Part shown: positions 38,171 through 40,850 of the stretch, piece by piece
Position numbering within the stretch: position 1 is the stretch's first letter
Layout of the letters: each line of letters opens with the position of its first letter
Assembly: GCA_000997945.1 (NCBI GenBank)
Contig: LCCP01000016.1
Location: 1-42,690, forward strand
Origin: Parcubacteria group bacterium GW2011_GWC2_42_12
GTDB lineage: Bacteria > Patescibacteriota > Patescibacteriia > Patescibacteriales > GWC2-42-12
DNA: 42,690 nucleotides
Reading direction: 5' to 3'
Notes under the pieces: model-generated
Told to the model about the DNA's origin: nothing
Database searches by the model: none
The model's input: the letters and a program-made list of their open reading frames with translations, nothing else
Translations under genes and position numbers: made by a program

Positions 38171-38198
38171 TTGACAGGAGCGGTAAAAAGAGTATAAT
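38171..38198 (+). promoter_or_regulatory. promoter of the DGR target gene
   Basis: Consensus TTGACA, 16-nt spacer, consensus TATAAT. Confidence 0.85.
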
Positions 38199-38341
38199 GG
38201 AAAATCAACCACTTTTGAGATTAGAAGATATTAGGTTAATTAGACCTACCGTCTTCTACCCTCAATTCCGAGGTTAGAAACCCTGATGAGTAGTTAGGGT
38301 TTGAGTTAATAGAAAAACAAAAAGACAACAGGAAAAGAGTT

Positions 38342-38941
38342 ATGAGTAATAGCACATTAAAACAAAAGTTTGATTACACATTGGATGAACAAGCGGCTTT
38401 GCTTAGCCAGTTTGGCCACGTCATGGAGGCTGTTAACGAACGGCAACGGCCGGCAGCCAGGGTGTCGCTTGCTTTGCAGGCGGCGATCAGCGACGACGAC
38501 ATCGTCGTCGTGCCCAAAGTCACTACAACGCCTACCGGGAAAGTTTTTCATGTTACCGGCAACGCCCAGTCGGCCAAAGAGGCGATTGACGCCTTGAATT
38601 GCCCGGTGAAGTGGGGCTTGGCTGAAACACCGGAGAAGATCCCGCTGATCATTCAACCGGTTGATTGCAGAGCGCGGTTCATTCCGCTGGGGCGGGTCAG
38701 AACGACGGAGGAGATTTACAACTTCCCGAAGATTTTGCCTCCAACCGAGTTCTTTGCTCTCGGGGCAAAATTCCCTAAAGAGCAATGCGAAGCTCCGATC
38801 CTGGATGTGTGGCTGGACGCCGTTGGCCGGTTTTGGTACGCGATTCTTACTGTTAACGGCGTCCAGCGTGATGTCGACGTCCGCCAGGCTCACCCTGTTG
38901 GCCAGTGGCGCGGGCACTACCGCGTTCCTGTCCGCGAGTAA
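38342..38941 (+). CDS. DGR target (variable) protein, 199 aa
   Basis: C-terminal 38 codons form a variable repeat paired with the TR 329 nt downstream of the VR; no obvious signal peptide. Confidence 0.9.
   Translation: MSNSTLKQKFDYTLDEQAALLSQFGHVMEAVNERQRPAARVSLALQAAISDDDIVVVPKVTTTPTGKVFHVTGNAQSAKEAIDALNCPVKWGLAETPEKIPLIIQPVDCRARFIPLGRVRTTEEIYNFPKILPPTEFFALGAKFPKEQCEAPILDVWLDAVGRFWYAILTVNGVQRDVDVRQAHPVGQWRGHYRVPVRE
38825..38938 (+). repeat. DGR variable repeat (VR)
   Basis: 114-nt ungapped alignment to 39267-39380 with 17 mismatches, all at TR adenines (A to G, C or T); ends directly before the TAA. Confidence 0.96.
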
Positions 38942-38948
38942 GCGCTTG

Positions 38949-38994
38949 GAGCCTTGGATCCTTAGACCTTTGCCGGTTTTTTGATCCTTGGCTC
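38949..38994. promoter_or_regulatory. imperfect hairpin just downstream of VR (candidate retrohoming cruciform or terminator)
   Basis: GAGCC-tt-GGATC ... GATCC-tt-GGCTC, 7 nt after the stop codon. Confidence 0.4.
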
Positions 38995-39063
38995 TCTTTT
39001 ATTTATGGCAGACTTTGAACAGGTTTATAGCGTATTGTTTTTTTAGAAAATTTCAGATAGAAT

Positions 39064-39258
39064 AACCTTGGATAGTAAACGAAACAGTCCAAGGTTAAGG
39101 CTTTGGGCGGTTGAACTCTAAATCGCTAAACTAGAAGTTATATTTAGCGGTTTTCAAAAATAAAGAAACTCGGTTCAGCCAACTGGCGGGCTTAAGGCCC
39201 CGAATAAGATACAGCCCCGAGAGTATTCAAAGGGCAGTGGCATAGATGGTTGGCTGAA
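39064..39258 (+). ncRNA. structured leader of the template-repeat RNA
   Basis: Three stems in order: AACCTTGGA/TCCAAGGTT (39064-39096), AATCGCTAAA/TTTAGCGGTT (39121-39152), TTCAGCCAAC/GTTGGCTGAA (39174-39258, ending 8 nt before TR). Confidence 0.6.
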
Positions 39259-39266
39259 TAGTTGTG

Positions 39267-39380
39267 AGCCAGTTTTGGTACGCGATTCTTAATGTTAACG
39301 GCGACCAGCGTAATGTCAACGTCAACCAGAATCACCCTGATGACAAGTGGAACGAGAACTACCGCGTTCCTGTCCGCGAG
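39267..39380 (+). repeat. DGR template repeat (TR)
   Basis: Noncoding partner of VR; translated in the VR frame reads SQFWYAILNVNGDQRNVNVNQNHPDDKWNENYRVPVRE, rich in AAY/GAY codons. Confidence 0.96.
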
Positions 39381-39390
39381 AGTCTTTATT

Positions 39391-39417
39391 CTCCTCCTCT
39401 AATAGGAGGAGTTTTTT
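39391..39417 (+). terminator. intrinsic terminator of the TR transcript
   Basis: CTCCTCCT-ctaat-AGGAGGAG-TTTTTT, 10 nt after TR; overlaps the avd stop codon on the other strand. Confidence 0.85.
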
Positions 39418-39734
39418 GTAAGCTGTTTTTGCCAGCCGCCTAGCATTTTACCGACTTCAACTAATGGAGCAGAAATAGGGGCAAATTTTTTATTGTCAAT
39501 CGCCTTTAATTCCCAGGCCAGCCGCATAAAAAATTTGAGAACATCCAACTTTAAGCAGGCTTTTTGAATGATTGGCAACTTCATCTCCCTTGAAGCGAAG
39601 CCGGCCGTTAGTATAAGCTCCGCTAATTCAATAAATGAAAGATTGATTTTTTCTCCCAAAGAGTAACGGGTAAGTTTGGGGAAATGCGGCAGAATATTAA
39701 GCCACAATTTGTAAGCGTCCGTTATTTTTTGCAA
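39399..39734 (-). CDS. avd: Avd-like four-helix-bundle DGR accessory protein
   Basis: 111 aa, predominantly helical; LGEKINLSFIELAELILTAGFA...LDVLKFFMRLAWELKAIDNKKFAPISAPLVEVGKMLGGWQK resembles bAvd-type proteins; sits between TR and RT. Confidence 0.85.
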   Translation of the reverse strand: MQKITDAYKLWLNILPHFPKLTRYSLGEKINLSFIELAELILTAGFASREMKLPIIQKACLKLDVLKFFMRLAWELKAIDNKKFAPISAPLVEVGKMLGGWQKQLTKNSSY

Positions 39735-39803
39735 AACCGATAAATCGGCCCTGCTAAAATTCCGTTGGGGGGGGTAAGCATAAAAGCAAGATTAAAAATT
39801 AAA

Positions 39804-40850
39804 ATGAGAAAGGAAAAAGTAAAATTTAAGGAAAGTTATGACAGTATTATTTCTTTAGATAATCTGCTTGAGGCCTGGCGGGAATTTATCAAGGGCAAGC
39901 GCAACCGGAAAGATGTGCAAGAATTTTCTTTGTATCTAATGGATAATATTATTTCGCTCCATGATGATCTTCTTAATTATAGCTATCGGCACGGCGGTTA
40001 TCAAGCTTTCCGGGTTTCCGACCCTAAGACGAGGAATATCCATAAAGCAGGTGTTCGCGATCGGTTATTGCACCGCGCGATTTATAGAGTTTTGTATCCA
40101 TTCTTTGATAAGACTTTTATTGCCGATTCATATGCCTGTCGGCTTGAAAAGGGCACGCATAAATCGGTTAACAGGTTTTGCGAGTTTGCTTATCGGGCGA
40201 GCCGGAATGATACCAGAACTTGCTGGATACTTAAAGGCGATATTAGAAAATTTTTTGCTACTGTGGATCACAATATTTTAATAAATATTTTACAGGAGCA
40301 TATACTCGACAAGGAAATTATAAAACTTTTAACGGAGGTAATAGAAAGTTTTTCGTCCGGTCAGGTTGGCGTGGGCTTGCCGTTAGGGAATTTGACATCA
40401 CAGCTTTTTGCAAATATCTATTTGGATAAATTTGATCAATTTGTTAAGCACAGGATAAAAGCTAAATATTATATAAGATACGCGGACGATTTCGTGATTT
40501 TCTCGCAAGATAAAGAATGGTTAGAAGAGCAAATCGTCAGGATTAAAGAATTTTTGCGTTGTCAGCTAAAACTTGAATTGCATCCGGATAAGATTTTTAT
40601 TAAAACGGTGGCTTCGGGCGTTGATTTTCTCGGTTGGGTAAACTTACCGGATTATAAGGTTATCCGAACCGCGACTAGAAGGCGTTTAATAAAAAGAATT
40701 ATGGCAAACCCCAAGAGAGAGACTATCGCCTCATATTTTGGCTTATTAAGTCATGGTAATACTTATAAAATTAAAAGAAGTATTTTGGGAACATATAGAG
40801 GCAAGAACTTTAATGTATGGAGTTGCAAAATAAAGCATAATATTATATAA
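39804..40850 (+). CDS. DGR-type reverse transcriptase
   Basis: YIRYADDFVIF catalytic motif; GLPLGNLTSQLFANIYLDKFDQF with the (I/V/L)GxxxSQ-type motif 4 of DGR RTs; FLGW; ATG at 39804. Confidence 0.95.
   Translation: MRKEKVKFKESYDSIISLDNLLEAWREFIKGKRNRKDVQEFSLYLMDNIISLHDDLLNYSYRHGGYQAFRVSDPKTRNIHKAGVRDRLLHRAIYRVLYPFFDKTFIADSYACRLEKGTHKSVNRFCEFAYRASRNDTRTCWILKGDIRKFFATVDHNILINILQEHILDKEIIKLLTEVIESFSSGQVGVGLPLGNLTSQLFANIYLDKFDQFVKHRIKAKYYIRYADDFVIFSQDKEWLEEQIVRIKEFLRCQLKLELHPDKIFIKTVASGVDFLGWVNLPDYKVIRTATRRRLIKRIMANPKRETIASYFGLLSHGNTYKIKRSILGTYRGKNFNVWSCKIKHNII

Follow-up and report, generated by a model that had tools for sequence, protein, structure and literature searches.

Diversity-generating retroelements (DGRs) are among the strongest natural mutators, and how good variants of a cellular DGR target escape being scrambled is, as far as we know, an open question. 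The locus described here raises it in a concrete form, namely whether the mutator itself could be switched. The locus lies in the window (the whole stretch of DNA that was analysed; 42,690 nt), on contig LCCP01000016.1 of Parcubacteria group bacterium GW2011_GWC2_42_12 (GCA_000997945.1), the source genome of which comprises 1.03 Mb in 48 contigs. A preliminary description of this DNA had read the locus as a complete DGR, on the grounds that VR and TR differ only at TR adenines and that an RT and an Avd-like protein lie alongside. The features on which that reading rests are the following.

38825-38938, + strand: VR.
39267-39380, + strand: TR, intergenic, starting about 5 nt past the match to the RNA element R1 (see below).
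39399-39781, - strand: avd, with its body at 39399-39734 and an upstream ATG at 39781-39779.
39765-40850, + strand: DGR RT, likely start at ATG 39804, with YADD and PLGNLTSQ motifs and a match to RVT_1 (5e-25).

Upon recounting the 114-nt gapless match between VR and TR, we obtained the same 17 mismatches, of which 17/17 lie opposite TR adenines, and the terminal 23 nt are identical; the identical pair was also returned by a repeat finder. Since the TR holds 31 adenines in total (substitutions into VR: 9 A>G, 6 A>C, 2 A>T), the probability that 17 mismatches fall on A alone by chance is 3.6e-12. In the frame of the target, the TR adenines all occupy codon positions 1 and 2, and AAC codons are abundant in the TR, like in other DGRs. 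The A-only signature, present in the window and in dozens of related loci, supports the DGR identity, and the locus is a real diversity-generating retroelement. The RT with its DGR-type motifs stands beside VR and TR as described. On comparison with DGR RTs, which the preliminary description had named as a check, it proved related to phage DGR RTs including that of BPP-1, and its best solved relatives were the 8ub7-8ube set (nine entries named 'Reverse transcriptase'; 8ub7, E 4e-43), with a group II intron RT far behind (E 1e-18). This set is, we presume, the BPP-1 bRT-Avd-RNA complex. The Avd call held, with the body at 39399-39734, and needs one correction as to strand: the gene lies on the minus strand, antisense to both TR and RT. 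That DGRs occur in CPR bacteria was, as had been stated, already known (DGR clade 2; Roux et al. 2021, PMC8144416). Three unusual points were not part of that account, namely that avd is antisense, that a conserved scaffold RNA precedes the TR on its 5' side and that a simple-sequence repeat (SSR) lies at the start of avd.

The gene that is rewritten lies upstream of these elements and has the following parts.

38171-38198, + strand: promoter-like site ahead of the target gene, of sigma-70 type (TTGACA-16-TATAAT; 12/12 in a consensus scan); its first base is also where the region of the preliminary description begins.
38201-38341, + strand: structured leader of the target mRNA, folding better than shuffles (z -4.9).
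38342-38941, + strand: open reading frame of the DGR target, 199 aa, with the VR at its C-terminus.

The last 38 residues of the target are encoded by the VR. Searches of Pfam and NCBIfam with the 199-aa protein gave no match, and recognisable domains are absent from CPR DGR targets (PMC8144416). One distant relative was met, L198, the target of a Doudnabacteria DGR, and two scans of viral contigs, with the RT and the target as queries, found no relatives. Because homologues are lacking, the AlphaFold model (mean pLDDT 42) was not usable, and a C-type lectin fold remains unresolved. For the leader, neither the source genome nor some 140 related loci supplied a homologue, and we dropped it as a candidate DGR-wide element. 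In a related locus (L023, 3007-3135), substitution at a TR adenine has put an in-frame TAG into the VR, so that the DGR's own mutagenesis truncates the target there.

The antisense arrangement of avd is not peculiar to the window. The Avd protein matched Pfam bAvd (3.5e-15; 56.9 bits, above the cut-off of 40) and, under its cut-off of 80, NCBIfam NF033474 (70.7 bits). We observed the layout of target with VR, TR, antisense avd and RT recurrently, both in the window's order and in loci fetched through the RT alone (80 GTDB records, their labels naming CPR groups or plain 'bacterium'; the one with a Planctomycetota label comes from a genome placed in the window's order). Avd was antisense to the RT in 70/71 non-duplicate loci of our second set, and other DGR layouts occur within the same family (L028, L029).

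Between the avd ATG and the avd body lies the element that bears most directly on the question of a switch.

39767-39774, - strand: C8 homopolymer (G8 on the + strand), the proposed phase-variation switch.

This tract is the sole SSR of its kind within the 42.7-kb window, and its position is conserved in relatives; across the source genome, tracts of at least G8 number nine. In the first set of related loci, 61 carried both genes, and in 48 of these we found an SSR in the short avd/RT junction (on the RT strand G7-15, otherwise GA, TG or CT repeats), such that 48 of the 58 SSRs in 368 kb fell within 2.5% of the DNA (186-fold; P 7e-67). In the second set, with 74 further loci, 66/75 SSRs were at the avd/RT junction (346-fold; P 9e-101). 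All in all, an SSR, usually C7-15 on the avd strand, separated the avd ATG from the body in 111 loci. The repeat type varied (C, CT, GA, CA and, in L144, CAAT) with place and frame logic constant, and this suggests that what is conserved is hypermutability. Tract length also differed between related loci, for example G7 vs G15 at 89.5% DNA identity; within-population data are lacking.

We then consider the reading frames. From SSR to body, the avd frame was open in 111/111 loci, when compared to 173/222 in the other two frames (P 4e-10). With the start codon assigned by a simple rule (nearest open ATG), ATG and body shared a frame in 14 loci of the first set and did not in 32; in the second set, 13 loci were in frame and 50 were not. 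The overall in-frame share of 27/109 (25%) is close to, if slightly below, the one third expected of random registers (P 0.03). Where the SSR was absent, a direct in-frame ATG was present in 11/12 loci of the first set but in only 2/5 of the second. MAG assemblies can miscount homopolymers, and length errors of one are possible. With a hypermutable SSR inside the 5' coding region of avd and a frame open on both sides of it, the locus has one of the hallmarks of a contingency locus, and the layout predicts a phase-variable Avd, for which there are neither read-level variation nor expression data. As assembled, the avd strand of the window reads ATG CTT A-C8-AACGG and is out of frame; the frame from ATG to body would be restored by C9 or C6, giving MLTP(P)QRNFSRADLSVLQKITDAYKLW..., and not by C7 or C10. 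If the assembly is right, the source cell lineage would thus carry its DGR in the OFF state, because C8 leaves the ATG out of frame with the avd body. Elsewhere in the source genome, a G9 follows at a short distance an ATG in a non-DGR gene (L165; contig C4, 17006-17014), possibly a second phase-variable gene.

It may be objected that this is an ordinary CPR DGR, that the SSR and the antisense orientation of avd have no significance, and that translation of Avd begins at a TTG or GTG inside the gene, so that nothing is switched. In-frame starts of this kind do exist in part of the loci: after the SSR, TTG is found in 55/111 and GTG in 15/111 (ATG in 2/111), any of which could start a shorter Avd, and in the window the TTG at 39734 yields a 111-aa ORF with the bAvd match. 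Yet 49/111 loci lack ATG, GTG and TTG alike after the SSR, and the alignment to the NCBIfam Avd model begins at 39743, upstream of the window's TTG. An incidental repeat is also hard to reconcile with a 186- to 346-fold concentration at one spot in two sets and with repeat types that differ at a constant place, and we consider this explanation unlikely.

A second objection concerns the other gene. Situated in the short gap between the divergent avd and RT, the tract precedes the RT start as well, and changes in its length might alter promoter spacing, in which case the RT would be switched instead of or besides Avd. This we judge improbable, given that the Avd frame is open from tract to body in every one of the 111 loci and that 11 of the 12 first-set loci without an SSR have a direct in-frame ATG. 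Moreover, four DGRs of other lineages in the same family, including the third DGR of the source genome, carry (GA)n inside the RT, out of frame in 3/4 (in frame in that third DGR), which points to frame switching.

The TR on which the proposed SSR-gated Avd would act seems itself to be part of a structured RNA. The elements in the window are as follows.

39057-39165, + strand: 5' domain of the TR-RNA, with a TTAAGG-loop hairpin at 39087-39108; its sequence resembles those of L136 and L067.
39166-39262, + strand: R1 element, a three-way junction (P1, P2, P3) directly 5' of the TR; 95.6 bits to model R1, of whose training set the window is a member.
39391-39416, + strand: intrinsic-terminator-like hairpin (8-bp stem and T-run) between the convergent TR-RNA and avd.

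The R1 alignment comprises the last ~98 nt before the TR of 23 loci (P1 10 bp, P2 5, P3 4). We observed two-sided changes at 19/19 pairs, with up to six pair types at one position of P1, and 91.8% of paired cells could pair, vs 37-43% when partners were slid by 1-3 columns; these values were reached by 0/500 shuffles. A pseudoknot within R1 (GAATA/TATTC) was convincing by eye and was dropped since covariation was absent. The upstream domain has 26 predicted pairs, 23 of them with compensatory changes (27 loci), and two hairpins with a common YAMGG-type loop, of which the window retains the first, the second being degenerate. A terminator-like hairpin followed the TR in 48/56 loci (median 12 nt past the TR end), vs 12.8% of random places.

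The R1 covariance model found matches in 75 of 381 Patescibacteria genomes across the phylum, mostly at DGRs. At 40 R1 places taken from outside the training set, a DGR RT was present in the same stretch in 34 and Avd in 35. A TR/VR pair was found in 56/69 R1 loci, and in 54 of these 56 the TR started within 9 nt of the R1 end (median 1 nt). Conversely, loci fetched through the RT alone had R1 in 73/80 cases. Six phage DGR regions, that of BPP-1 among them, lacked R1, as did L028, L029, L020 and L021. In the RT tree, from which a wide reference set of group II introns and retrons was left out, the R1 loci formed a single branch (100/100) with three R1-less rows, and the phage RTs and L028/L029 fell outside it. 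We infer that the TR is part of a discrete non-coding RNA of ~350-400 nt, made up of 5' domain, R1, TR and terminator, for which there are no transcript data. Judging from its position and conservation, the likeliest role of the scaffold is to recruit RT-Avd, to stop the RT at the TR edge, or both; the exactness of its junction with the TR suggests that it marks the RT stop too. That R1 might be a cis-regulator (an attenuator or another system's RNA) merely preceding the TR cannot be countered with binding or expression data on its role, and four R1 loci have no RT and avd nearby (three of the four look like relics), but we think it unlikely in view of the fixed TR junction (54/56 at ≤9 nt), the strand shared with the TR, the terminator after the TR, the co-occurrence of R1 with RT and the lack of any ORF for R1 to regulate.

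No Rfam family matched the RNA of the window. The RNA of the second DGR of the source genome gave weak matches to RT-7 (RF03028; 28.1 bits) and RT-16 (RF03019; 23.8 bits), on account of which we gave up the notion that the RNA is wholly unknown; all matches of these RNAs fall below the gathering scores (116.8 for RT-7, 50 for RT-16), and in 20 related loci neither family reached its gathering score. In G183, an RT-7 match of 60.6 bits sits directly 5' of a TR-like stretch with a DGR-like RT downstream; a VR was not found in 6.7 kb, and the TR assignment is an inference from sequence. Because of this placement, RT-7 is probably the same kind of RNA as the DGR scaffold, and as far as sequence can tell both RT-7 and RT-16 look like distant relatives of it. 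R1 would then be a new relative, and in Patescibacteria a much more widespread one. RT-7 and RT-16, which were reportedly published by Weinberg et al. in 2017, are catalogued as sRNA genes, and we know of no DGR role assigned to either. An unrelated Rfam RNA, LOOT (74.3 bits), was met at L120 (4972-5085) and has no relation to the DGR.

The source genome contains at least two DGRs besides that of the window. The second lies at the start of contig C1 (L022, 1-1285, minus strand), with R1, TR and VR present, and the contig terminates within avd. The third is split between the end of C31 (L020, 4000-5943) and the start of C14 (L021, 1-694); TR and R1 were not found in these two pieces, and a VR-like target end abuts a terminator and antisense avd. 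This gap reflects either an assembly error spanning the VR/TR repeat or a true deletion. Among relatives, L145 (3141-3254, minus strand) has R1, an intact-looking TR and a terminator with no avd or RT within ~3 kb, and is possibly a stand-alone TR-RNA acting in trans. L128, L134 and L151 have R1 with an eroded or absent TR and no RT, and are probable DGR relics. In L076, a single TR has a matching VR upstream of itself and a second one downstream of the RT, and in L129 the VR lies on the far side of the RT, on the opposite strand.

Taken together, we are confident, short of certainty, that the locus is best explained as a Patescibacteria-type DGR with a 5' scaffolded TR-RNA and an SSR-gated Avd. 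The A-only VR/TR pair, the RT and Avd of DGR type, the covarying RNA with its conserved placement, and the place and frame logic of the SSR rest on direct observation; the operation of the locus is inferred, from transcription through RNA-protein binding and switching to retrohoming. The TR-RNA would be transcribed from its own promoter; the RT with Avd would bind the 5' scaffold and copy the TR into cDNA with errors at adenines; and the cDNA, its far end set by an RT stop at the scaffold/TR edge, would replace the 3'-terminal VR of the target gene. Slipped-strand mispairing in the SSR between the avd ATG and body would gate Avd, so that full-length Avd, and with it rewriting of the target, would arise only at the right tract length. 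To our knowledge, the essentiality of Avd is known from BPP-1-type systems only. Since Avd is described as essential for retrohoming or cDNA synthesis (PMC10053308, PMC6642488), a frame switch in avd would switch the whole mutator. An ON cell would diversify its target, and an OFF cell would keep a good variant. We find it reasonably likely that the SSR at avd (in other lineages, in the RT) switches hypermutation stochastically, being ON in a minority of cells, and that the 5' scaffold replaces the 3' spacer of BPP-1.

DGRs in CPR bacteria, RT-associated RNAs and phase variation through SSRs are each already known. In the open literature searched, we found no report of phase variation switching a DGR, nor of a scaffold RNA conserved on the 5' side of DGR TRs; an earlier mention of either in Paul 2017 or Weinberg 2017 is not excluded. 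If the proposal is true, a reversible mutation that switches a mutator would be a simple answer to the preservation of good variants, and the question of the switch could be tested directly in metagenome reads. The R1 covariance model serves as a finder of TRs, including cut-off or stand-alone ones, and the 5' scaffold points to a possible role for some, at least, of Rfam's RT-k RNAs and offers a compact TR-RNA cassette that can be tested apart from the BPP-1 spacer.

How does this DGR compare with known systems? With BPP-1 (mtd-avd-TR-brt), the window shares the RT family, Avd, the A-specific TR/VR differences and a 3'-terminal VR in the target gene. In BPP-1, however, all genes are on one strand, whereas the window's avd is antisense, and the structured RNA lies 3' of the TR, whereas in the window it lies 5'. 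The BPP-1 spacer recruits bRT-Avd and primes cDNA (PMC12875486). We did not meet a 3' spacer of this type in the window, where room for it is lacking: the TR is directly followed, at ~12 nt, by a terminator and then by the antisense avd. A structured 3' spacer is a feature of BPP-1 and not defining for all DGRs. The SSR at avd or RT was likewise absent from six phage DGR loci. DGR clade 2 resembles the window's DGR in host group, in an RT clade that follows the host and in targets without domains (Roux et al. 2021); the main text of that paper (PMC8144416) does not mention Avd, RNA secondary structure, phase variation or homopolymers. Retrons (msr-msd), like the window's DGR, place a structured RNA 5' of the RNA template of the RT; unlike in retrons, there is no evidence of branched 2'-5' priming in the window, and its RT, Avd and TR/VR are of DGR type. 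Finally, the contingency loci of Neisseria, Bordetella and Campylobacter resemble avd in having a G/C homopolymer or a di- or tetranucleotide tract between the start codon and the gene body. What is switched in those loci is a surface antigen; here the switched gene belongs to a mutagenic retroelement, so that the ability to mutate would itself be switched.
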